Part shown: positions 5,328-21,712 of the stretch, piece by piece | Layout: the number at the start of each line of letters is the position of its first letter | How positions within the stretch are numbered: the stretch's first letter is position 1 | NCBI RefSeq assembly: GCF_015711645.1 | Contig: NZ_JABTEX010000004.1 | Coordinates: 558,001 to 622,000 of the forward strand | From: Planomonospora sp. ID82291 | Lineage (GTDB): Bacteria > Actinomycetota > Actinomycetes > Streptosporangiales > Streptosporangiaceae | Reading direction: 5' to 3' | Length of the DNA stretch: 64,000 nt | Notes under the pieces: generated by a model | What the model saw: the letters and a program-made list of their open reading frames with translations, nothing else | What the model was told of the DNA's origin: nothing | The model's database searches: none | Position numbers and translations under genes: made by a program

Positions 5328-6053
5328 TCAGACGGTGACGACCGTGCGGAGTCCGCCTCGCTCGAGCACCTCTCGGGCGAAGGCCACGAGCTCCGGAGTC
5401 GACTCGAGCAGTACCTGGAACTCGGGGCGCACCCCGTGCCGGCGGAAGCCGATGACGACCACGCGCAGGTCCGGGTCGAGGGCCGCCAGCCAGTCCGCGG
5501 TGCGCGCGAGCTGATCGGGAGCGTCGTTGACGCCCGGCACCAGCAGGAGCCGCACCTCGTGCAGCCTCCCGCTGCCGTGCAGGTGCCGGATCGAGTCGCG
5601 CACCAGTTCGTTGCCGCGGCCGGTGAGCCGACGGTGCACGTCGGAGTCCAGCGCCTTCAGGTCGACCATGAACCCGTCGGTGACCGGGAGCAGTTCGTCC
5701 CAGACCCGGGGCAGGGCGTGGCCGTTGGTGTCGACGAACGTCGTCAGCCGGCGTAGCCGAGGGTCGGCGCGGACGCCGCCGAACAGGTCACGGATGAAGC
5801 GCCACTGACCGGTCGCCTCGCCCCCCGAGACGGTGAGCCCGGCGAGGTACGGCTCGGCCGACCGGATCTCCTCCAGCAGTTCCGCGACGGAGGCGTCCCG
5901 GGTGTCCGGGCGCCGGGGTGGGATGGTCTGGGGGTTGTGGCAGGCCAGGCAGTCGAACGAGCAGCCCTGGAGGAAGACCGTGAACCGGTTCCCCGGGCCG
6001 TCCACCCAGGAGAACGGGATGACCTCAGCGACGCGAGCCGACATCGAGCTCAT
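5328..6053 (-). CDS. yjjW: YjjW-type glycyl radical enzyme activase (radical SAM)
   Basis: Radical-SAM activating enzyme of 241 residues that should install the glycyl radical on the adjacent enzyme. The N-terminus carries DGPGNRFTVFLQGC and the CX3CX2C cluster motif (Cys31, Cys35, Cys38; GCSFDCLACHNPQT), which ligates the 4Fe-4S cluster that cleaves SAM. LTVSGGEATGQ near residue 85 is the SAM-binding GGE motif. Unlike PFL-activase relatives with an inserted 8-Cys ferredoxin domain, none is present here. The upstream gene ends inside it: the ATG at 6053 overlaps the radical enzyme gene by 29 bases, so translation is coupled. An in-frame ATG at 6044 is the alternative start. NrdG of anaerobic ribonucleotide reductase is less likely given the partner. 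Confidence 0.82.
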   Translation of the reverse strand: MSSMSARVAEVIPFSWVDGPGNRFTVFLQGCSFDCLACHNPQTIPPRRPDTRDASVAELLEEIRSAEPYLAGLTVSGGEATGQWRFIRDLFGGVRADPRLRRLTTFVDTNGHALPRVWDELLPVTDGFMVDLKALDSDVHRRLTGRGNELVRDSIRHLHGSGRLHEVRLLLVPGVNDAPDQLARTADWLAALDPDLRVVVIGFRRHGVRPEFQVLLESTPELVAFAREVLERGGLRTVVTV

Positions 6054-7566
6054 GGGCCATGATCCGTTTGGGCGCGCGGTGGTGGCCGTGCGACTGGGCG
6101 ACCGCTCCGGCACCGAGGAAGGTGCTGTCGTGACGGGCGCCGTCCTCGACCTTCGCAAGATCGGACTTGCGCACCATGTAGCCGGTGATCCGGATGAAGT
6201 CGTTGCTGTCGAGGTTGAACGTCACGTCCCGCATGCCGGTGCGCAGCGCCCCGCGGACGATGTCCACGACCGCGTCGGGGTTGCGCCGCGCGGTCTCGTC
6301 GAACGCGAGGATGTCGCTGATCCCGGCAGGGAACAGCACATGGTGAGGGGTGACCGTCTGGAGGTGTCGCAGCAGCCCGGGTTCCTCGCCGATCGGGATC
6401 CGGCAGCCGGCGGTCACGCCGACGTCCAGGTCGATGCCGGATTGGCTGTGCAGCAGTGCTCGGCCGGCGTTTCCCCCGCAGTAGGGCATCGGCCGTGCGG
6501 CGACCAGGTCGCGCACGCGGAGCAGGATCTGGTGGGCCAGCTCGTCGGCCACGTCGTCGTGGCCGTAGCGTGCGGTGACGCCCTCGCATCCCAGCACCAG
6601 GGCCACCGCCTCGGCGAGCCCGAACACACCGAACATCGCGGAGTACCGGTCCAGGTGGAGCAGCCCGTCCGCCACCAGCCAGGAGTGCTCGAAGAAGCCG
6701 GCCTCCTCGACGAGGTGCCGGATCCGTGCCTCCATCAGCTCGGCGGTCAGCTCCACGTAGCGCGGCAGCAGGTCGTCCAGGAAGGAGCTCCGCGACCCCT
6801 CGTGGAGCAGCGCCACCTCGCGCAGGTTCAGCCGCACCAGCGTGTGCGAACCGCCGCCGGAGCGGAGCGAGTTGTAGCAGGACGCCACGCCGTATTCCGG
6901 TCCGAGGTCGGCGACCATCATCGGGTGGTTGACGAAGTGCGGCTTCCCGCAGGCGAAGACGGTCTCCACGGCGTCGCGCACCAGGTCGTCCGGCGTCCGC
7001 GCCGGGTCGACCTTGAGCGTCAGGTTCGGGACGACCTGCAGCAGGTCGCGCTCCAGGCGCAGGGCGGTGCGGCCGACGCGGGTGTCGTCCGGGCCGAGGT
7101 TGGCGTGGGCGAACGCGTCGGGCAGCATCCGGTCCATCGCGATCCAGAACAGCCGGAGCCTGCGGTACAGCTCCTCGTCGGAGACGCCCTCGGTGTACGG
7201 CTCGAGCAGCGCGTCGAGGTCGCCCAGCCACACCGGGTAACCGGTGATCGAGGGGACCTGGGTGTAGCCGATCAGCAGCGTGTTCAGCGCCTCGTCCAGA
7301 TCGCGGGCCGGCTCGAGTTCGAGGAACGCGGACCCGTCGCGCAGAAGCTTCGCGTAGTCGGGGAGGATGTAGCGGGGCCGGTGCGGGGCGTTGCCCTCGT
7401 ACATGTCGCAGATGATCCGCTTCTCAAGCGCCTCGGCGCAGGCCGCCGAGACCGGCGGCGGATCGAGGGCGTTCTCGGACAGCCCGGCAAGGCGGTGCAT
7501 CCGCTGCCGGTAGGTCAGTGTCGGGTCGTCGATCACCTCCCGTGCCAGCGCGCGGACCTCAGTCAT
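6025..7566 (-). CDS. yjjI: YjjI-type glycine radical enzyme
   Basis: Protein of 513 residues matching the small YjjI (DUF3029) group of glycyl radical enzymes, whose reaction is unknown. The probable radical glycine is Gly462 in FIRITGYMV near the C-terminus, and the probable active-site cysteine is Cys230 in ASCYNSLRSGGGSHTLVRLN. It lacks the C-terminal Zn cysteines of class III ribonucleotide reductase and is far shorter than PFL. The ATG at 7566 is preferred over that at 7572 because AAGG lies at proper distance only for the former. The activase gene overlaps its end, giving a two-gene operon. Such oxygen-sensitive enzymes are rare in aerobic filamentous actinomycetes, which suggests acquisition or use under oxygen limitation. 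Confidence 0.82.
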   Translation of the reverse strand: MTEVRALAREVIDDPTLTYRQRMHRLAGLSENALDPPPVSAACAEALEKRIICDMYEGNAPHRPRYILPDYAKLLRDGSAFLELEPARDLDEALNTLLIGYTQVPSITGYPVWLGDLDALLEPYTEGVSDEELYRRLRLFWIAMDRMLPDAFAHANLGPDDTRVGRTALRLERDLLQVVPNLTLKVDPARTPDDLVRDAVETVFACGKPHFVNHPMMVADLGPEYGVASCYNSLRSGGGSHTLVRLNLREVALLHEGSRSSFLDDLLPRYVELTAELMEARIRHLVEEAGFFEHSWLVADGLLHLDRYSAMFGVFGLAEAVALVLGCEGVTARYGHDDVADELAHQILLRVRDLVAARPMPYCGGNAGRALLHSQSGIDLDVGVTAGCRIPIGEEPGLLRHLQTVTPHHVLFPAGISDILAFDETARRNPDAVVDIVRGALRTGMRDVTFNLDSNDFIRITGYMVRKSDLAKVEDGARHDSTFLGAGAVAQSHGHHRAPKRIMAHELDVGSRR

Positions 7567-7889
7567 CTCCATCCTTCGAAGGTACGCGGCCGGCGTCGGC
7601 CAGGGCAGGGACGAAAGACCTGAGATCGGCTCTCGGCTTGATCTTCGACCTGTGCCCTCGGCCGTCCCTCTGATCCGCTTCTGAGATCTCTCCGTTCGGC
7701 GGACACGAGTACGGCCGCCCGGCGCCGGGCGGCGGACCGGGCCGGCCGCCGTGGCGACGTAGAGCTGGACGACGTGCCTGCCGTACCGCTGACCGGCTTC
7801 GGCTTGGGCGCCGTCCCCCCTGTTCCCCAGGGCGTCATCGCCGGAATCGTGGACGGCCGGATCCGATCGGCTGAGCCGCGCTCCGGCGG
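7567..7889. other. intergenic region with yjjI promoter
   Basis: About 320 bases between the starts and ends of two leftward genes. The right part follows the TetR stop and the left part must carry the yjjI promoter. Short frames here lack ribosome sites and domains. I looked for an FNR- or Rex-like palindrome, as expected for an oxygen-sensitive enzyme, and found none convincing. Confidence 0.4.
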
Positions 7890-8570
7890 TCAGTCCGCAG
7901 AGCCGGCCGGCTCCAGCATGGGCACGAGGAACCGCCGGGCCACCGCGGCCAGCCGCCCGTCGTCGTCGAGGTCGACGACCTGGCTGGGGATCGCCAGGAA
8001 GGAGGCGGAGATCCGGACCATCAGCTCGGCCACGAGATCGGTGTCCAGGTCGCCCGAGACGTTGCCCGCGCGCTGCTCGCGGCGGAGCTGGCCTGCGACG
8101 AACTGCCGCACGATGGCGAGGGTGCGGCCTCCGTCGCTGACCATGGAGGGCACGATCAGGTCCGGTTCCGCGGTGATCAGGCCGCCGATCAGCGGGTTGC
8201 CCCGGATGGCGCGCAGCGAGCTCACGAAGCCCAGGACCACCCGGTCGGCGGCGGTGCGGGCCTGTTCGATGTCGGCGAGGAACCGGTCGAAGTAGCGGCG
8301 GAACTCCCGGCGGACCACGTGTTCGACCAGCGCGTCCTTGGTGGGGAACCGCCGGTAGACCGTGACCCGTGAGACCCCGGCCCGGCGCGCGACGTCCTCC
8401 ATGGTGGAGCGCCGGATCCCCAGGCGGCAGAACTGCTCGTACGCCGCGTCGAGGATGCGCGTCCGGGTCTCGTCCAGGTCGTCGACCCGTTCGACGGCGT
8501 CGGTGTAGGCGCGTTCCAGCAGCGAATCCGAGTCGGACGGCGCCATGAGCGCGGACAGCACGGGTTCCAC
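7890..8570 (-). CDS. TetR family regulator of the rubber-degradation genes
   Basis: TetR-type repressor of 226 residues, with HTH RSTMEDVARRAGVSRVTVYRRFPTKDALVEHV near residues 45-75. The open frame extends to 8681, but the GTG at 8570 is preceded by GGAGGT at 8575-8580 and gives a normal N-terminus, so the longer version is rejected. It is divergent from the two latex-clearing protein genes across a 152-base gap containing a strong palindrome. In Gordonia polyisoprenivorans a TetR protein (LcpR) next to lcp represses it; by position this is the equivalent. The ligand is unknown but would plausibly be an isoprenoid cleavage product. Confidence 0.87.
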   Translation of the reverse strand: MEPVLSALMAPSDSDSLLERAYTDAVERVDDLDETRTRILDAAYEQFCRLGIRRSTMEDVARRAGVSRVTVYRRFPTKDALVEHVVRREFRRYFDRFLADIEQARTAADRVVLGFVSSLRAIRGNPLIGGLITAEPDLIVPSMVSDGGRTLAIVRQFVAGQLRREQRAGNVSGDLDTDLVAELMVRISASFLAIPSQVVDLDDDGRLAAVARRFLVPMLEPAGSAD

Positions 8571-8653
8571 GATCACCTCCTGTGTTGATTCTGCCCGATC
8601 GCCCACAACCGCCGTCGCGGTCTTGTGGTGCACGACACGGTGTGCTCTATTGG

Positions 8654-8688
8654 TGATACGCAGATGCACTATACGTCTCATCGTATCA
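8654..8688. promoter_or_regulatory. operator region between tetR and lcp genes
   Basis: Two nested inverted repeats lie in the divergent promoter region: TGATACG (8654-8660) with CGTATCA (8682-8688), and ATACG-TCTCAT-CGTAT (8671-8686). They share the right arm, so a TetR dimer could bind the 16-base palindrome with an accessory half-site. The position, 35-70 bases before the lcp start, fits repression of lcp and autoregulation. Confidence 0.6.
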
Positions 8689-8722
8689 GCGGTGATCTCG
8701 ACCTCAGGAGAGGGGCGGAGGC

Positions 8723-9973
8723 ATGGGCGAATTCAGTAGACGCGACCTGCTGAAGGCGGGCGGGGCGTTGGGCACCATCGGGGCGTTGAGCTTCGCGACA
8801 CCCGCGCAGGCGCGCGTGTGGACGTGGTCGCCCAGCGGCTCGGTGGCGGGCACGGGGGCGGGCCTCGACCCGCGGTGGGTGTGGGACGAGGAGGCCGATC
8901 CGCTGGTCGCCTCGCTGATCGACCGAGGCGACGTGCCCAGGGTCAACGCGCTGCTGCGGACCTGGACCAAGAACGGCCAGCCGCTGCCGGACGGGCTCCC
9001 GGCGGACCTGCGGGCCTTCATGGAGAAGGCGCGCAGCATGCCCGCGTGGGCCGACCGGGGCAAGCTCGCCACCGCGGTCGAGTTCAACGACAAGCGGGGC
9101 CTCTACCTCGGCGTGCTGTACGGCTTCGCCAGCGGGATGATCAGCACGGTCATCCCCAAGGAGGCGCGTGCGGTCTACTACTCGCAGGGCGGCGCGGACA
9201 TGAAGGACCGCATCTCCAAGACCGCCAAGCTCGGGTACGACATCGGGTCCCGGAACGCCTACGACGACGACGGCGAAATGATCGTGACCTGCGTCAAGAC
9301 CCGGCTGGTGCACGCGGCCGTGCGCCACCTCCTGCCGAAGTCCCCACACTGGCAGGGGGCCGCCGACGAGGAGATCCCGATCAGCCAGGCGGACATGATG
9401 GTCACCTGGCACAGCCTGCCCACGACCGTCATGAAGCATCTGACCTCGTGGAAGGTGTCGATCCCCGACCACGAGTCCGTGGCCTTCCTGCACTCGTGGC
9501 AGCTGGCCGGGCACATGCTCGGCATCAAGGACGAGTACATCCCCGCGTCGTGGGCCGAGGCGAACTCCCAGGCCGAGCAGGTCCTGGACCCGATCCTGGC
9601 CCCGACGCCCGAGGGTCTCAAACTGGCCGACATCCTGCTCAACCTCGGCGCCCAGATCGACGCCGGCATCCTCAGCAAGCGCATACTCGGCGCGTTCACG
9701 CGCTTCCTGCTCGGCGACCAGATCGCCGAATGGCTGAAGATCCGCAGGTACCCGTTCTGGGACGGGATCCTCGACACGTTCTGGGAGCCCTTCATCGCCG
9801 TCCGCGAGGGCGTGCTCAAGGTGTTCCCGGGGACGGACAACGTCTACTGGCTTCTCGACGAGCTCATCCGCAAGCTGGTCCTGCTCTACCTGTCCGAGCT
9901 GAGGGAGATCAGCATCGAGATCCCGGTGGCCAACAACCCGAACTACCCGGGGAGCCCGGCATGGCGGAGCTGA
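8723..9973 (+). CDS. lcp: latex clearing protein (rubber oxygenase) 1
   Basis: Secreted b-type haem dioxygenase of the Lcp/DUF2236 family that cleaves poly(cis-1,4-isoprene) at double bases to oligo-isoprenoid aldehyde/ketones. The 416 residues begin with a Tat signal (SRRDLLKAGG; cleavage probably after PAQA at 30). Every residue known as functional in Streptomyces K30 Lcp (Glu148, Arg164, Lys167, Thr168, His198) has a counterpart one position lower: Glu147, Arg163, Lys166, Thr167 and the proximal haem ligand His197 in TRLVHAAVRHLLP. Ribosome site GGAG lies before the ATG. Its end overlaps the second copy by 13 bases, and oxiB-oxiA follow, the arrangement seen in rubber degraders. I am confident of the family; activity on rubber is inferred. 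Confidence 0.92.
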   Translation: MGEFSRRDLLKAGGALGTIGALSFATPAQARVWTWSPSGSVAGTGAGLDPRWVWDEEADPLVASLIDRGDVPRVNALLRTWTKNGQPLPDGLPADLRAFMEKARSMPAWADRGKLATAVEFNDKRGLYLGVLYGFASGMISTVIPKEARAVYYSQGGADMKDRISKTAKLGYDIGSRNAYDDDGEMIVTCVKTRLVHAAVRHLLPKSPHWQGAADEEIPISQADMMVTWHSLPTTVMKHLTSWKVSIPDHESVAFLHSWQLAGHMLGIKDEYIPASWAEANSQAEQVLDPILAPTPEGLKLADILLNLGAQIDAGILSKRILGAFTRFLLGDQIAEWLKIRRYPFWDGILDTFWEPFIAVREGVLKVFPGTDNVYWLLDELIRKLVLLYLSELREISIEIPVANNPNYPGSPAWRS

Positions 9974-11196
9974 GCAGGCGCAGGATGCTGATCTCGGGCG
10001 GGGCCCTGGGGGCGCTCGGAGCGCTGGGGGCGGCGTTCCCGGCCCGTGCGACCCCCTGGACCTGGTCGCCGAGCGGTTCGATCGCCGGCGTCGGCGCCGG
10101 CGCCGACCCCCGGTGGGTGTGGGACGAGGCGGCCGACCCCCTGGTCGCCTCGCTCTTCGAGCGCGGCCTCATCCCCGAGGTCAACCGTCTGCTCTGGAAC
10201 TGGGACCGCAATGACCAGCCCCTGCCCGAAGGGCTCCCGGCGGACCTGCGGGACTTCATGGAGGAGGCGCGCCGGCTGCCGTCATGGGCGGACCGGGGCA
10301 AGCTGGAGCGCGCGGCCGGGTTCAACAAGTCCCGCGGGCTGTACCTCAACCTGCTCAACGGCGTGGGCGGCGGCATGCTGAGCACCGCCATCCCCAAGGA
10401 GGCCCTCTCGGTCTACTACTCCAAGGGCGGCGCGGACATGGAGGACCGGGTCGCCAAGACGAGCCTCCTGGGGTTCGCCGTCGGAGACCTGAACGCCTAC
10501 CGGCCCGACGGCACCTGCATCGTCCAGGCCGTGAAGACCCGGCTGGTGCACGCGGCGGTGCGGCACCTGCTGCCGCAGTCCCCGCACTGGAAGGAGGTCT
10601 CCGGCGAGGAGATCCCGATCAGCCAGGAGGACATGCTGGTCACCTGGCACACCCTGCCGACCTTCGCCATGCGCAGGATGCTCGAGTGGAAGGTCCCGAT
10701 CACTCCCGCCGAGTCCGAGGCGTACCTGCACGTGTGGCAGGTGACCGCGCACATGCTCGGCATCAGGGACGAGTACGTCCCCGCGTCGTGGGCCGACGCC
10801 GACGCCCAGTCGGACCAGATCCTGCCCCGGAACACGGGCCCGACGACCGAGGGCGTGAAGCTGACCGACATCCTGCTGGACCAGCTCGCCGAGCAGACCA
10901 GCCTCGGCACCCGGGCCAGCCGGTCCCTGTGCAACGCGCTCGCCCGGTACCTGGTCGGCGACCAGGTGGCCGACTGGGACGGCATCGAGCGCGAGCCGGT
11001 GTGGGACCGGGTGATCCCCGCCGTCTGGCCGAAACTGGTGAAGTTCCGCGAGGGCCTCATCCCGCTGCCGCTGGTCCCCGAGACCGCCTGGGTGATCGAC
11101 GAGGCCGCGCGGAGGTACATCTTGCTCTACCTCACCAAGTTCAAGGAAACCAAGATCGACATTCCCGTGATCAACCGTCCGGTCCCGGGCCGCTGA
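9961..11196 (+). CDS. lcp: latex clearing protein (rubber oxygenase) 2
   Basis: Tandem paralogue of the preceding gene, 411 residues. It has its own Tat signal (ELSRRRMLISGG, likely cleaved after PARA at 30) and the same catalytic set: Glu147, Arg163, Lys166, Thr167, His197. The start ATG lies within the last codons of copy 1, so the pair is translationally coupled. By eye roughly 60-65 percent of residues agree, with most divergence in the C-terminal third, so the duplication is not recent and the two may prefer different chain lengths or lie on different extracytoplasmic faces. A four-base gap leads to oxiB. Confidence 0.92.
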   Translation: MAELSRRRMLISGGALGALGALGAAFPARATPWTWSPSGSIAGVGAGADPRWVWDEAADPLVASLFERGLIPEVNRLLWNWDRNDQPLPEGLPADLRDFMEEARRLPSWADRGKLERAAGFNKSRGLYLNLLNGVGGGMLSTAIPKEALSVYYSKGGADMEDRVAKTSLLGFAVGDLNAYRPDGTCIVQAVKTRLVHAAVRHLLPQSPHWKEVSGEEIPISQEDMLVTWHTLPTFAMRRMLEWKVPITPAESEAYLHVWQVTAHMLGIRDEYVPASWADADAQSDQILPRNTGPTTEGVKLTDILLDQLAEQTSLGTRASRSLCNALARYLVGDQVADWDGIEREPVWDRVIPAVWPKLVKFREGLIPLPLVPETAWVIDEAARRYILLYLTKFKETKIDIPVINRPVPGR

Positions 11197-11199
11197 GCG

Positions 11200-13518
11200 A
11201 TGACGGGATCGAATGACGGCATGCCGCCGGACGAGGCCGTCGGGCGGCGGCGGTTCCTCGGATACGTGCTGGCGGCCCCGACCCTGGTGGCCGCCGCCGA
11301 GCTCGGGGTGACGGCGTCGCCCGACATCCGGCCGCCCTCGCCCGACATCCGGCTGCCCTCGCCGGAGATCACGGAGATACTCGACCTCAACGACATGATG
11401 ACCCTGGCGGCGCTGCCCACCTCGGGCCTGGTCACGGTCGAGGTCCACCCGGACGGCACGGTCTCGTTCGCGCTGCCGCGGGCCGAGGTGGGCCAGGGCA
11501 TCACCACCTCGACGGCCATGCTGATCGCCGAGGAGATGTCCGTACCGCTGGACCGGGTGCGCGTCACGCTGGCCGACGCCCGGCCGGAGCTCGTGTTCAA
11601 CCAGCTCACCGGCGGGTCGAACACGACCATCGCGACCTACACCCCGATCCGGGTCGCCGCCGCCGTCGCCCGGCTCCGGCTGCTGGCCGCCGCGGCCGTC
11701 GAGCTCGGCTCGGCGGTCACCGACCTGGCACTGAAGGACGGGGTGGTCACCGCCCGCTCCGGCGCGAGCGTCGGCATCGGCGCGCTCGCCGGGACGGCCG
11801 CGAGCACGCGGACCCGGCAGGTGCCGGTGACGCTCACGCCGCGCGAGGACTTCACCGTCATCGGCAGGCCGCAGAACCGGATCGACGCGCTGGACGCGGT
11901 GACCGGGCGCAAGAAGTTCACGATGGATCTCGACGTCCCGGGCGCGAAGCCGACGATGATCTGCCGGCCGCCGACCATCAACGGCAGGGTCGGCCCGGTG
12001 GCCAACCTCGCCGAGGTCCGCGCCATGCCGGGCGTCACCGACGTCGTGACGGTCTCCACCGGGGTGGCGGTGCGCGCCGAGACCTTCGGCCAGTGCATCG
12101 ACGCCGTACGCGCGCTGAAGGTCTCCTGGAAGCCCGGCACCGCGGAGGGGAAGTCCGACGAGACCGTGCTCCGGGAGCTGGAGGCCGCGGAGCTTCCGAT
12201 CGGGCTCAGGCCGCCGACCCCGGTCGTGGAGGAGCGGTTCACCTTCCACTTCCGCAGCAACAGCGCGCTGGAGCCCAACTGCGCGATCGCGGACGTGCGG
12301 GCCGACCGCGCCGAGATCTGGTCGTCGCTGAAGTCGCCGATCGTCGCCCAGCAGGCCATCGCCGCCACGCTGAGGCTGCCGGTCGGCAGGGTCACCGTGC
12401 ACGTCACCGAGGGCGGCGGCTCCTTCGGGCGCAAACTCTTCTCCGACGCCGCGCTGGAGGCCGCCGAGGTCTCCCAGAAGCTCGGCAAGCCCGTCAAGCT
12501 CATGTGGCACCGCGCCGACGACTCCCGGCAGGGCCGCACCCACCCGATGGCCACCTCGCGGGTGCGCGTCTCCTACCTCGGCGACACCGTGCTGAGCTAC
12601 AAGCAGCGGCACACCAGCGTCTCCACCGACCTCGGCCACGGGCTCGGTGAGATCATCACCGCCACGGCCGCGAAGCTCCCGGTGGGCGACATCGGTTTCT
12701 CCGAGACGTTCTTCCAGCTCAGCCAGACGATGTCCTACGACTTCGGGAGCAGCAGCCGGCTGCTCAGCGAGACGGACAAGGGCTTCAACACCGGCAGCAT
12801 GCGGAACGTCTACTCGCCCGACGTCACCTGCGCCCGGGAGCTCATCGTCGACCGGCTCGCGGCGAGGATGGGCAGGGACCCCTACCGGTTCCGGCGCGAC
12901 TTCCTCCGGAACGACCGCTCCCGGGCGGTGCTGGAGAAGGCGGCCGAGGCCGGCGGCTGGGGGCGGCCGATGCCGGCCGGCACCGCGCAGGGCATCGCGT
13001 TCCACGCCGAGTACAAGTCCGTCAGCGCCGCGCTGGTGGAGATCGACTGCCGGCCCGAGACCGTCGGCCGGCCCATCCGCGACGGCGTGGCCGGACCGCG
13101 CGTCACCAAGGCCGTGTTCGTGGTGGACGTCGGCCTCGTCGTGAACCCGCGGGGCCTGGAGGCGCAGATGATGGGCGGCATCATGGACGGCATCGCGCTG
13201 GCCCTGACCTCCAGCCTGCACCTGCGCGACGGGTACTTCCTCGAGGCGAGCTGGGACAACTACTTCTACACCCGGCAGTGGAACACCCCGCCCGAACTCC
13301 AGATCATCATCATGCCCAGCGGCTCGGAGAAGCCCGGCGGCGCAGGGGAACTGGGCGTCGCCGCGTCGATGGCCGCGGTCGCCTGCGCGTACGGCCGTGC
13401 GACCGGGACGATGCCCACCGGCTTCCCGATCAACCACGGCACGCTCTCCTTCACCCCCAAACCGACCGTCCCGCCCGTTCCGCCCTCCCCGACCGACGGC
13501 TTGGACCACGCCCGCTGA
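11200..13518 (+). CDS. oxiB: molybdenum hydroxylase large subunit (OxiB-like)
   Basis: Molybdopterin-binding subunit of a xanthine dehydrogenase-family enzyme, 772 residues, of the isoquinoline 1-oxidoreductase type in which the large subunit carries a Tat motif (GRRRFLGYVL at 16-25). Cofactor motifs include AEVGQGITTS, EGGGSFGRKLF and KPGGAGELGVAAS with the probable catalytic Glu717. A short triplicated SPDIR/SPEI segment follows the signal region. In Streptomyces K30, oxiA-oxiB adjoin lcp and are thought to oxidise the aldehydes released from rubber to acids; position here (4 bases after lcp2, then the Fe-S subunit) supports the same role. No dedicated FAD subunit gene is present, as expected for this group. 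Confidence 0.88.
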   Translation: MTGSNDGMPPDEAVGRRRFLGYVLAAPTLVAAAELGVTASPDIRPPSPDIRLPSPEITEILDLNDMMTLAALPTSGLVTVEVHPDGTVSFALPRAEVGQGITTSTAMLIAEEMSVPLDRVRVTLADARPELVFNQLTGGSNTTIATYTPIRVAAAVARLRLLAAAAVELGSAVTDLALKDGVVTARSGASVGIGALAGTAASTRTRQVPVTLTPREDFTVIGRPQNRIDALDAVTGRKKFTMDLDVPGAKPTMICRPPTINGRVGPVANLAEVRAMPGVTDVVTVSTGVAVRAETFGQCIDAVRALKVSWKPGTAEGKSDETVLRELEAAELPIGLRPPTPVVEERFTFHFRSNSALEPNCAIADVRADRAEIWSSLKSPIVAQQAIAATLRLPVGRVTVHVTEGGGSFGRKLFSDAALEAAEVSQKLGKPVKLMWHRADDSRQGRTHPMATSRVRVSYLGDTVLSYKQRHTSVSTDLGHGLGEIITATAAKLPVGDIGFSETFFQLSQTMSYDFGSSSRLLSETDKGFNTGSMRNVYSPDVTCARELIVDRLAARMGRDPYRFRRDFLRNDRSRAVLEKAAEAGGWGRPMPAGTAQGIAFHAEYKSVSAALVEIDCRPETVGRPIRDGVAGPRVTKAVFVVDVGLVVNPRGLEAQMMGGIMDGIALALTSSLHLRDGYFLEASWDNYFYTRQWNTPPELQIIIMPSGSEKPGGAGELGVAASMAAVACAYGRATGTMPTGFPINHGTLSFTPKPTVPPVPPSPTDGLDHAR

Positions 13519-13533
13519 GACCAGGAGATCCGA

Positions 13534-14010
13534 GTGCCCGAGTACACCTTCCGCGTCAACGGGGAGCAGGTCACCGTCGACGTCCCCGGCGACGTGCGCC
13601 TGCTGTGGGTGCTGCGCGACATCCTCGGCATCACCGGGCCGAAGTACGGCTGCGGCATCAACGTCTGCAAGGCCTGCACCAGCCATGTCAACGGCCGCGC
13701 CGTCAACCCCTGCGCGGTCCCCGTCGCGGACCTCCGGCCGACCGACGAGGTCACCACCATCGAAGGGCTGGCGGCCACGGTCGGCGAGGACCTGCACCCC
13801 ATGCAGCGGGCGTGGATCGACCACGACGTCGCCCAGTGCGGCTACTGCCAGCCCGGCCAGATCATGGCCGCCGTGGCACTGGTCCGCCGGGTCGCCGCCG
13901 AGGGCCGCGAGATCACCGACGCCGACCTCGACGGCCTCCGCAACATCTGCCGCTGCGGCACCTACTTCCGCATCCGCGAGGCCATCCGGGCAGGTGCGAA
14001 GGACATGTGA
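13534..14010 (+). CDS. oxiA: 2Fe-2S subunit of molybdenum hydroxylase (OxiA-like)
   Basis: Small iron-sulfur subunit of 158 residues that passes electrons from the molybdenum site of OxiB. The N-terminal plant-type 2Fe-2S cluster ligands are in CGINVCKACTSHVNG with a fourth Cys at VNPC; the C-terminal helical domain holds the second cluster in CGYCQPGQ and NICRCGTYFRIREAI. It lacks a signal peptide, so it is probably co-exported with the Tat-bearing OxiB. The start is GTG at 13534 with AGGAG about 8 bases ahead, 15 bases after the oxiB stop. It ends the rubber operon. Confidence 0.9.
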   Translation: MPEYTFRVNGEQVTVDVPGDVRLLWVLRDILGITGPKYGCGINVCKACTSHVNGRAVNPCAVPVADLRPTDEVTTIEGLAATVGEDLHPMQRAWIDHDVAQCGYCQPGQIMAAVALVRRVAAEGREITDADLDGLRNICRCGTYFRIREAIRAGAKDM

Positions 14011-14143: not shown

Positions 14144-14752
14144 TCAGGCGAGGCGGAGCGTGGTCAGGCAGGTCGGCGCCTCCTGGCCGGTGGTGATCTC
14201 CGCCTCACCGGTCCTGCCGCCGTAAGTGATCTTCAGGGTGCCCTCGATGCCGCGGGGCAGCCAGAAACCGGTGAACCCGTTGGCGAAGGTGGTGCGCGTC
14301 TCGTCGACCAGCACCCTGCCGTTGGTCTCGTCCACGATCTTCACCTGTATGTCCCGGGCGGCCAGTTCGCCCTTGCAGGTGGTCAGCGAGTGGTGGAAGC
14401 ACTCGTGGGTCTGATCCGTGTAGGGGGCCACCGACAGGTAGAAGCGGTCATCGGGGACAGGGAGGCCGACCTCCTGGGCGCCGCCGGAGACCACCAGTTC
14501 GCCGGGTCGGACCGACGCTCTCAGGTCGGTCGGGCGCTCCTGGAGGCTCAACCGGTCGAGATGGTCGATGATCTCCACGGTGCTCTTGCCGTCCAGGCCG
14601 TGGGAGGCCAGCAGCGGTCCGGCTCCGGCGGACGCCGACGGTGCCGCGCTCGGCGCGGTGGTGGCCGGGGCGGCGGTCGTGTCGTCGCCCGGGGTCGCGC
14701 ACCCGGTCAGCAGCAGGGCGGAGACCGCGGTCGCGATGACGAGTCGTTTCAT
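14144..14752 (-). CDS. cueP: CueP-like copper-binding lipoprotein
   Basis: Exported protein of 202 residues with a lipoprotein signal (LLLTGC, lipid on Cys18), an Ala/Thr/Ser/Pro-rich tether to about residue 45, and a folded domain with the conserved HECFHHSLTTCKGEL segment whose Cys and His residues fit the metal site of CueP, the periplasmic copper protein of Salmonella. A second Cys lies in APTCLTTL near the end. It would buffer or hand over copper on the outer face of the membrane. It follows a membrane protein gene by 42 bases on the same strand. No copper ATPase or CueR/CsoR gene is next to it. Confidence 0.75.
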   Translation of the reverse strand: MKRLVIATAVSALLLTGCATPGDDTTAAPATTAPSAAPSASAGAGPLLASHGLDGKSTVEIIDHLDRLSLQERPTDLRASVRPGELVVSGGAQEVGLPVPDDRFYLSVAPYTDQTHECFHHSLTTCKGELAARDIQVKIVDETNGRVLVDETRTTFANGFTGFWLPRGIEGTLKITYGGRTGEAEITTGQEAPTCLTTLRLA

Positions 14753-20131: not shown

Positions 20132-21712
20132 TCAGAGCCGGGTGTCGATGACGCCCTCGTGCAGGGGGTTCGGCTCCTCCTTGAGCGCCGCCTTGTGGAT
20201 CTTGCCGCTGGCGGTGTAGGGCAGCTCGGTGCGGAACTCCACGTACCGGGGCACCTTGAACGGCGCCAGCCCTTCCCGGGCCCAGGCGACGACCTGATCG
20301 GCGGTGAGGTCGGCGCCGCCTTCGGGCACGATGATGACCTTGACCTCTTCCTCGCGGTCGGGGTCGGGGACGGGGACGGCGGCGATGTCGTCGACGCCGG
20401 GCATCGTGCCGATGTGGAGTTCGAGTTCGGCGGCGGAGATGTTCTCGCCGCTGCGGCGGATCATGTCGCGCAGGCGGCCGATGTAGAAGTGCTGGCCGTC
20501 GGCGTCCTTGACGGCGATGTCGCCGGTGCGGAACCAGCCGCCGGGCAGGAACAGCTCGGCATTGGCCTCGGGGCGGTTGTGGTAGCCCAGCATCATGCCG
20601 GGTCCGCGGAAGCACAGCTCTCCTGCGGTGCCCGGGGGGACCTCTTCGAAGCGCTCATCGACGATCTTGGATTCGCGGTTGGGGAAGCAGAAGCCCATCG
20701 AGCCGTTGCCCGCCAGATCGTCGCGCTCGAAGGGTACGGCGGTGCCCGAGCCGATCTCGGTGCTGGCATAGCATTCGCGGGCCTTGATCCCGAAACGCTC
20801 CTCGATCGGCGCATACGCCTCGCCGGGCATCCCGGCCACGGGCGCGCGGGTGAGGGCGAGGTCCTTGTCTCGGGGGTCTTCGGGGAACAGCAGGAGGTCT
20901 TCGTCGATCCAGGCGAAGTCGATGCGGTAGTCGTGCAGCCAGTTCATGAATTTGCGGCGGCTCAGGCCTGGAGTGATGTAGAGGGCTCCGCCCTTGAACA
21001 GGGCGACCATCAGGTACGCCTGGTTCTGCATGTAGTAGAAGGGGTGGTCGGCCAGCAGCCGGACGGAGTCCGGGTTGAGCGTGGCGCCGAAGATGCCCAT
21101 CTCCATCCAGTACTCGTGCGTCAGCAGGCAGCCCTTCGGCAGCCCGGTGGTGCCCGAGGTGAACTGGATGTTGGCGATGTCGAGCGGGTCGAGGTCGGTG
21201 CGGCGGGGTGTCGCGGGCGTCTGCAGGAGATCGTCGAAGCTGAGGGCGGCCAGGTCGCCGGCACCGATCGAGACGACGTGGTCCAGGTCGACCGGGCCGA
21301 TACGGCCGTCGTCGGCGGTGGCTTCGAGGAGGTCGCCCGTGCCGATCAGCCAGGTCGCCCCGGCATCGCCGAGCACGAAGTCGATCTCCCGGGCGGTGTA
21401 CTTGGGGTTGAGCGGCACGATCGCGGCGCCGGCCTCGACGATCGCCAGCCAGGCGATGGGGAACTCGAGCTGGTTGCGGACGATCACGCCGACCTTGTCG
21501 CCGGGGCGGACGCCTGCCGTCTCCAGGCCGGAGCGGACGGCGGCGGTCACGGTCCGCACCTGGCTCCAGGTCAGGGAGCGCTTCTCCCCTTCGATCTCGT
21601 GAAGGGCCGGCCGGTCCGGCCAGGCCTGGGCGGCGGCGTCCAGGGCGTCGGGGATGGTCTTGCCCCGCAGTGCCTGCTGGTGCGGGGTCAGAGTGGCGAC
21701 GATCTGCGTCAT
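20132..21712 (-). CDS. AMP-dependent acyl-CoA ligase
   Basis: Adenylate-forming enzyme of 526 residues that would activate a carboxylic acid to its CoA thioester with ATP. Signatures in order: FTSGTTGLPKG (P-loop A3, about 175), YASTEIGSG (A5), GWFRTGDI (A7), IGRLRDMIRRSGENIS (hinge A8) and YTASGKIHK with the catalytic lysine of A10 near the C-terminus. The acid substrate cannot be read; medium-chain, cyclic and crotonobetaine-type ligases all look similar. It follows the hotdog gene by 28 bases in one operon, and acid released by the cluster amidase would be a logical substrate. Confidence 0.9.
   Translation of the reverse strand: MTQIVATLTPHQQALRGKTIPDALDAAAQAWPDRPALHEIEGEKRSLTWSQVRTVTAAVRSGLETAGVRPGDKVGVIVRNQLEFPIAWLAIVEAGAAIVPLNPKYTAREIDFVLGDAGATWLIGTGDLLEATADDGRIGPVDLDHVVSIGAGDLAALSFDDLLQTPATPRRTDLDPLDIANIQFTSGTTGLPKGCLLTHEYWMEMGIFGATLNPDSVRLLADHPFYYMQNQAYLMVALFKGGALYITPGLSRRKFMNWLHDYRIDFAWIDEDLLLFPEDPRDKDLALTRAPVAGMPGEAYAPIEERFGIKARECYASTEIGSGTAVPFERDDLAGNGSMGFCFPNRESKIVDERFEEVPPGTAGELCFRGPGMMLGYHNRPEANAELFLPGGWFRTGDIAVKDADGQHFYIGRLRDMIRRSGENISAAELELHIGTMPGVDDIAAVPVPDPDREEEVKVIIVPEGGADLTADQVVAWAREGLAPFKVPRYVEFRTELPYTASGKIHKAALKEEPNPLHEGVIDTRL

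Follow-up and report, generated by a model that had tools for sequence, protein, structure and literature searches.

What switches on the breakdown of natural rubber in an actinomycete, and why should one genome carry two latex-clearing proteins side by side? Both questions are raised by a locus of Planomonospora sp. ID82291, located in a 64,000-nucleotide stretch (hereafter the window; contig NZ_JABTEX010000004.1, G000:C10:558001-622000 in our numbering) of its 7.58-Mb genome. Here, a gene for a TetR-family regulator diverges from lcp1 and lcp2, which encode latex-clearing proteins (Lcps) and are followed by oxiB and oxiA, encoding the subunits of a molybdenum enzyme – a layout proposed in an earlier note on this DNA and borne out, coordinates included, by a check of the open reading frames and by domain matches (Table 1). 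Very probably, the locus is an inducible operon for the utilisation of natural rubber (cis-1,4-polyisoprene), of the known TetR/lcp1-lcp2-oxiB-oxiA kind, because the Lcps match a known rubber oxygenase over their full length and keep its residues, because the gene order recurs in relatives and in the well-studied system of Actinoplanes OR16, and because the operator is so specific to lcp. What is new lies in the regulatory detail – a 35-bp site, a block preceding it and a second operator that was most likely lost – and the rest is mostly ordinary.

Two latex-clearing proteins and a molybdenum enzyme

Lcps are haem b oxygenases that cut polyisoprene to oligo-isoprenoids with aldehyde and ketone ends. 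Both window proteins match PDB entry 5o1l, 'Rubber oxygenase', at full length (Lcp1: E 5.3e-153, query residues 2–406, 56.6% identity; Lcp2: E 5.6e-157, query residues 4–407, 57.6% identity), and they are 56.7% identical to each other. We take 5o1l to be the Lcp of Streptomyces K30, an assumption with which PMC11095694 agrees. The K30 residues that the earlier note had listed (Glu148, Arg164, Lys167, Thr168 and His198) are all found in both proteins, as E147, R163, K166, T167 and H197, and so are Arg195 and Arg202; over 118 aligned rows these seven positions are invariant, bar one X each at 164 and 198. Motif inspection places a Tat-type motif at either N-terminus (SRRDLL in Lcp1, SRRRML in Lcp2); the Pfam TAT_signal profile scores 19.7 bits on Lcp1, under its cut-off of 22.7, and has no match on Lcp2, and an NCBIfam scan gave no match for either protein. 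By full-length homology, haem ligand and named residues, and Tat motif, both are predicted to be K30-type Lcps. The genome has five PF09995 matches, yet at E 1e-40 the Lcp1/Lcp2 profile matches the window pair only.

The two Oxi subunits follow lcp2 directly, as had been claimed, the distances lcp1–lcp2, lcp2–oxiB and oxiB–oxiA being −13, 3 and 15 bp. OxiB has the Pfam domains MoCoBD_1 and MoCoBD_2 and the motifs VGQG, GGGSFGRK and GGAGE; its best solved relative is 8gy3_C, the large subunit of an aldehyde dehydrogenase (E 4.7e-34, residues 81–740). OxiA consists of two [2Fe-2S] domains (Pfam Fer2_2, E 2.5e-25; Fer2, E 3.6e-06) with cysteines at positions 40, 45, 48, 60, 102, 105, 139 and 141, and its best match, 8gy3_B (E 1.1e-39), belongs to the same aldehyde dehydrogenase, so that 8gy3 is by E-value the nearest solved relative of both. 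8gy3 is a periplasmic, membrane-bound enzyme that includes a cytochrome subunit, whereas no cytochrome domain occurs in the 22 open reading frames scanned around the window's oxiBA. With a molybdenum subunit bearing MoCo motifs and a partner with two [2Fe-2S] domains, encoded beside lcp, OxiBA can be assigned by sequence to the OxiAB type. In 37 loci with oxiB in line, the GGxGE motif and the OxiA cysteine pattern are found in all, and RRx[FL][LMI] stands at or just before the OxiB start in 34. Because this motif is widespread, OxiA has no evident export signal of its own and both subunits are related to 8gy3, OxiBA is likely to be exported through the Tat-type signal of OxiB.

Known systems and distribution among relatives

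The arrangement itself is already known. Actinoplanes OR16 (ACTI_59620 / lcp1-lcp2-oxiB-oxiA) resembles the window in gene order, divergent TetR gene, Tat motifs and a palindrome within the TetR-bound region; as reported there, RT-PCR (reverse transcription–polymerase chain reaction) joined lcp1-lcp2-oxiB-oxiA across all three junctions into one latex-induced transcript, expression of lcp1 rose 22.2-fold and that of lcp2 17.1-fold in response to latex, and the divergent TetR shifts the lcp1 promoter in an electrophoretic mobility shift assay (PMC7413915). A further lcp, the third, is reported from another place in OR16 along with a second regulator, whereas the Lcp profile finds just two Lcps in the window genome. 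Streptomyces K30 has lcp followed by oxiB-oxiA, as in the window, with one lcp reported (PMC9108482), and its OxiAB oxidises oligo-isoprenoid aldehydes, as cited in PMC9108482 and PMC7413915. A pair of neighbouring lcp genes ahead of oxiB-oxiA, as in the window, is described for Streptomyces CFMR 7, Dactylosporangium AC04546 (PMC11169899) and Microtetraspora AC03309, the last with a reported 277-bp gap between the lcp genes (PMC8538451). Gordonia polyisoprenivorans VH2, by contrast, is reported to have its two lcp genes on chromosome and plasmid (PMC7413915), and Gordonia is described as lacking oxiAB (PMC11169899).

To place the window among its relatives, 79 loci were fetched from the best 80 of 94; since some are cut by contig ends, counts of gene order are lower bounds, and one locus with lcp2-oxiB on the opposite strand (L018) was left out of all of them. 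The order lcp1-lcp2-oxiB-oxiA recurs in at least 26 of the 79, and two lcp genes precede oxiBA in another order in at least five. Of 297 genomes drawn from the family, the Lcp profile picks out 87 at E 1e-40; 69 of the 87 have a strong Lcp (at least 235 bits, a cut that we set), and 17 carry an adjacent lcp pair on the same strand. An OxiB of at least 68% identity is found in all 17 tandem genomes and, among the 69 strong-Lcp genomes, in one other (G070); five further genomes have a homologue of 58–61% identity, in one case (G065) beside lcp. The nearest named relatives of Lcp1, among the matches listed, are Planomonospora sp. ID67723, Planobispora and Planomonospora venezuelensis (86–87% identity; tree). 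Our literature search found no paper joining 'rubber oxygenase' and Planobispora.

A 35-bp operator marks lcp promoters

The earlier note had pointed to a palindromic operator at 8654–8688, and this proposal holds: the palindrome, with perfect 7-bp arms, is part of a 35-bp site and, being conserved in relatives, is more than a chance repeat. Scanning 115 lcp upstream regions with a matrix of the 35-bp site finds it in 83, at scores of 31.8–58.6 against 7.7 for the best shuffled control. As the matrix was trained on those same 115 regions, a genome search is the better test. At up to two mismatches, the pattern occurs 76 times in the 297 genomes (reversed-pattern control: 0), and in 73 cases a strong Lcp gene starts no more than 300 bp downstream of the site, the distance being 29–60 bp in 67 of these. 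The site is present in 67 of the 69 strong-Lcp genomes (missing in G151 and G295) and absent from every genome without a strong Lcp; since the family also supplied many of the training loci, this sensitivity is not independent, but the specificity is. The other three sites (G102:C1:3985822, G191:C2:273831 and G246:C8:76488) may be further LcpR targets or chance matches. A wider LcpR regulon in the window's own genome was considered and rejected, as the search finds a single site even at up to three mismatches, although diverged sites would escape it.

The regulator fits this site. Its product has a TetR_N domain (Pfam, E 7.8e-15), and its translation probably begins at GTG 8570, with AGGAGG just before it. 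A TetR helix-turn-helix, divergence from lcp and a palindrome in between mark it as a predicted TetR of the LcpR type. Scoring the 83 lcp starts that are first genes (30 downstream or cut starts were set aside), we find a divergent TetR homologue beside 64, all 64 with the operator, which also occurs at 12 of the 19 starts without an adjacent divergent TetR. The four half-sites of the box suggest that it binds two TetR dimers.

Published sites agree in part. LcpR-VH2 is the TetR regulator of lcp in G. polyisoprenivorans VH2, and the VH2 lcp2 palindrome fits our matrix clearly (26.8); the VH2 lcp1 palindrome (16.8) and the OR16 lcp1 palindrome (17.4 over 25 overlapping bases, covering columns 11–35 of the site) fit weakly, below every accepted site, though in the forward direction all three palindromes, from VH2 and OR16 alike, outscore every one of 1000 shuffles. 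For the unrelated LcpRB site of S. coelicolor, the matrix gives no fit. As far as the sources go, lcp palindromes are quoted for single strains (PMC7413915), and LcpR-VH2 homologues are called widespread, with a different site, that of LcpRB, conserved over twelve strains (PMC8235351). No 35-bp LcpR consensus was found in these sources, which do not include Oetermann 2019, Coenen 2019, Rose 2005 and Nanthini 2017.

Five Actinomadura lcp genes (L023, L024, L032, L039 and L048) have neither an adjacent TetR gene nor the 35-bp operator. All five share an inverted repeat, TATTGGC-N5-GCCAAT, 83–169 bp before the lcp start, which is found in none of the 110 other upstream regions and may be a different lcp control site.

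The block ahead of the operator

A conserved block (Table 1) ends 2 bp ahead of the operator. The pattern TTGTGR-N16..19-[TG]NTN[AT][TC], picked post hoc from the sequences, precedes 44 of the 83 operator sites (shuffled mean 0.2). At first, the block was viewed as a plain −35/−10 promoter; this was widened after a test of TGTGR-N6-NCAC, a likewise post hoc pattern that precedes 50 of the 83 operator sites (shuffled mean 0.18) as against 0 of 32 operator-less lcp upstream regions. At the front of its block the window has TGTGG-N6-ACAC (8624–8638), a degenerate CRP-like box, and the block can also be taken as such a box followed by a −10 element; the stricter TGTGA-N6-TCAC occurs at 16 of the 83 sites. 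In VH2, rubber degradation is reported to be regulated by CRP, with TGTGA-N6-TCACT given for CRP-VH2 (PMC8235351). The region reads as a putative RNA-polymerase site, possibly under CRP-type control, with the TetR operator placed over the start.

The lcp1–lcp2 junction

In the window, the lcp1 frame runs into lcp2 by 13 bases, from which the earlier note had concluded that one transcript delivers both enzymes in fixed ratio. A single lcp1-lcp2-oxiB-oxiA transcript is plausible; the fixed ratio does not stand, for overlap makes translational coupling possible without setting a ratio, and 24 of the 26 relatives with the same order have gaps of 19–426 bp, the other two standing at −8. With gaps of −8 to 426 bp over the 26 loci, the overlap was rejected as a conserved coupling device. 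The starts behind these gaps are taken straight from tblastn matches.

The closest relatives suggest how the overlap arose. Planomonospora L006, the sister of the window's Lcp2 (100/98) and the nearest row for Lcp1, has an lcp1 ending in ...NNPDY and then a 206-bp gap, in which another operator (score 47.5) lies 32 bp ahead of lcp2. Streptosporangium L009, next on the Lcp2 tree (84/79, weaker), has a 426-bp gap and an operator before lcp2 as well (46.7), and the two second operators are identical in 32 of 35 letters. Parsimony on the Lcp2 tree speaks less clearly, as a single loss in the window costs the same as separate gains in L006 and L009; operator gains and losses amount to at least eight changes over 34 scored Lcp2 rows, and the neighbouring five rows are without an operator. 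Loss is nonetheless favoured over gain because the L006 and L009 sites and their flanks are near-identical, and the 13-base overlap is most likely the scar of a deletion that took lcp2's own operator together with the intergenic region. Such a deletion would leave lcp2-oxiBA dependent on the lcp1 promoter, which supports one transcript.

It might be objected that lcp2-oxiBA is a separate unit, served by a promoter inside lcp1 that lacks this operator, with the two Lcps regulated apart. Four of the 24 scored loci of this order (L006, L009, L017 and L046) do keep an operator directly before lcp2 – L043 scores 3.3, and the lcp2 starts of L027 and L042 went unscored, hence 24 rather than 26 – and lcp2-oxiBA lies apart from lcp1 in at least six of the 79 loci. 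One of the four, L017, is Dactylosporangium AC04546 itself, which, unlike the window, retains a 91-bp gap. In the window, however, lcp1 and lcp2 overlap, and the best operator score in the 300 bp before lcp2 is −24.4, nothing operator-like, which makes a separate unit improbable here.

Two old paralogues and what they act on

That the second lcp is a recent duplicate adding only dosage might be suspected from two adjacent genes of one family with 56.7% identical products. A tree built by a quick method from 118 Lcps, with the two fragments of the split lcp2 of L052 omitted, speaks against a recent tandem duplication: first-gene and second-gene Lcps form separate clades (71 rows, SH-aLRT 99; 42 rows, SH-aLRT 99), each spanning Streptosporangiaceae, Pseudonocardiaceae, Micromonosporaceae and Frankiaceae, so that each copy clusters with its positional counterparts across four families, and the K30 Lcp sits beside the Lcp2 clade rather than Lcp1 (support 92, unstarred). 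By their sequences, Lcp1 and Lcp2 are old, distinct paralogues, and the dosage explanation can practically be dismissed. Two multi-family clades do not simply fit the suggestion, made in PMC8235351, that lcp evolved separately in each genus.

Might another isoprenoid – gutta-percha, squalene, a carotenoid or another terpenoid – be what the Lcps act on, instead of or besides rubber, with rubber clearing incidental? Fixed differences between the two types, by a 90% rule, do number 19 without five Lcp3-like rows (11 with those rows kept), the 19 including Ser138/Gly and Ser233/Thr in the substrate pocket and Ile165/Val and Ala169/Ser in the tunnel, as these are listed in PMC11095694. Eight of the 19 fall within K30 residues 131–173 (post hoc p 0.00027), as do three of the 11 with the Lcp3-like rows kept (p 0.1), and pocket and tunnel residues are not enriched (4/19, p=0.12). 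Active-site enrichment was therefore dropped, and the pocket and tunnel differences are a lead. Every named catalytic residue is kept in both window Lcps; the OR16 lcp1 and lcp2 products, from the same operon, are reported to take up oxygen with rubber latex (PMC7413915), and all three Lcps of Dactylosporangium AC04546 to degrade natural rubber (PMC11169899). Another main substrate is thus a slim prospect, slimmer still than a separate lcp2 unit.

Several observations nevertheless pull against the reading of the locus as one inducible rubber operon. Three loci of Planobispora and Planomonospora venezuelensis (L007, L008 and L010) keep TetR, operator and lcp1 without lcp2-oxiBA beside them, and three genomes with identical operator letters (G043, G057 and G132) have no OxiB match at E 1e-60; in near relatives, the downstream lcp2-oxiBA would thus appear dispensable. 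The OxiAB role assigned here by analogy rests on K30 genetics, known only as cited. With latex, OR16 Lcp1 and Lcp2 are reported at 4.02 and 1.17 U/mg, a ratio of 3.4 by these values and of about 7 according to that paper's Discussion (PMC7413915), and this 3.4-fold lower activity could make Lcp2 the minor partner. As to the upstream block, the post hoc patterns fit just 44 and 50 of the 83 sites, the CRP-like half in the window is degenerate, and the published Gordonia form TGTGA-N6-TCACT occurs at 0 of the 83.

Features and neighbouring genes

Table 1. Features of the rubber-utilisation locus (positions in the window)
Feature	Position	Strand	Basis and remarks
TetR-family regulator, LcpR type (predicted)	7890..8570	minus	226 aa from GTG 8570; open frame reaches 8681
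Conserved promoter block (putative), TTGTGG-N17-TCTATT	8623..8651	+	Pattern count in the sequence upstream of relatives' operators
35-bp operator, TGATACrCaGAtnC-N7-GTwTCAnnGTATCA	8654..8688	none	83/115 lcp upstream regions
lcp1, latex-clearing protein, Lcp1 clade, Tat-type SRRDLL	8723..9973	+	5o1l match, residues, tree
lcp2, latex-clearing protein, Lcp2 clade, Tat-type SRRRML	9961..11196	+	5o1l match, residues, trees
oxiB, molybdopterin subunit, aldehyde dehydrogenase-like, Tat-type RRRFL at residue 16	11200..13518	+	Pfam, 8gy3_C, motifs
oxiA, 2x[2Fe-2S] subunit, eight Cys	13534..14010	+	Pfam, 8gy3_B

The earlier note had placed the pathway from polymer cleavage to aldehyde oxidation in one operon. 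Lcp cleavage and OxiBA are indeed encoded in it; genes for uptake and β-oxidation lie outside. Six MCE-domain matches form a single run in the genome, and the window contains an acyl-CoA dehydrogenase gene (1388–2731) and an AMP-binding ligase gene (20132–21712, minus strand) several kb off, with no link to the operon shown. Right after oxiA, on the opposite strand, lies a gene for a CueP-like copper-binding protein (14144–14752, minus; Pfam E 1.5e-54). On the other side stands a gene for a YjjI-like glycyl radical enzyme (6025–7572, minus; Pfam E 5.8e-201, with an RITGYM motif near the C-terminus), here in an actinomycete genome; a radical SAM protein gene overlapping it (5328–6158, minus) probably encodes its activase.

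A model of the locus and its implications

Without rubber, the LcpR-type TetR would sit on the 35-bp operator, over the expected transcription start, and silence the genes. Release would come from a rubber-derived compound, and a CRP-type global regulator at the preceding block may join in. One transcript would then yield two Tat-exported haem b oxygenases, which would cut polyisoprene outside the cell to aldehyde- and ketone-ended oligo-isoprenoids and would probably divide the work between them, as well as OxiBA, exported by means of OxiB's Tat-type signal, which would take OxiA along. OxiBA would oxidise the aldehyde ends to acids, judging from the K30 work as cited. In the window's lineage – by comparison with its relatives – a deletion probably removed the lcp2 operator, so that lcp2-oxiBA would rely on the lcp1 promoter.

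A broader picture, to which we give somewhat less than even credence, is that one dedicated LcpR box of 35 bp and four half-sites, bound by two TetR dimers and often lying behind a CRP-like box, may run rubber breakdown across several actinobacterial families, controlling lcp and almost nothing else. Lcp1 and Lcp2-OxiBA would then have begun as separately operated modules and been fused as the second operator was lost repeatedly, the window being one case, and the two Lcps would differ in pocket (138, 165, 169 and 233) and job.

The locus adds a rubber-utilisation system in a genome near Planomonospora and Planobispora. As the 35-bp box marks lcp promoters, with only three of 76 matches elsewhere in 297 genomes, it could aid the search for rubber degraders, define the operator to be used in binding studies and be put to use in inducible expression. 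Finally, 'why two Lcps?' becomes a question open to direct test, since the two paralogue types are conserved and differ in set pocket residues.

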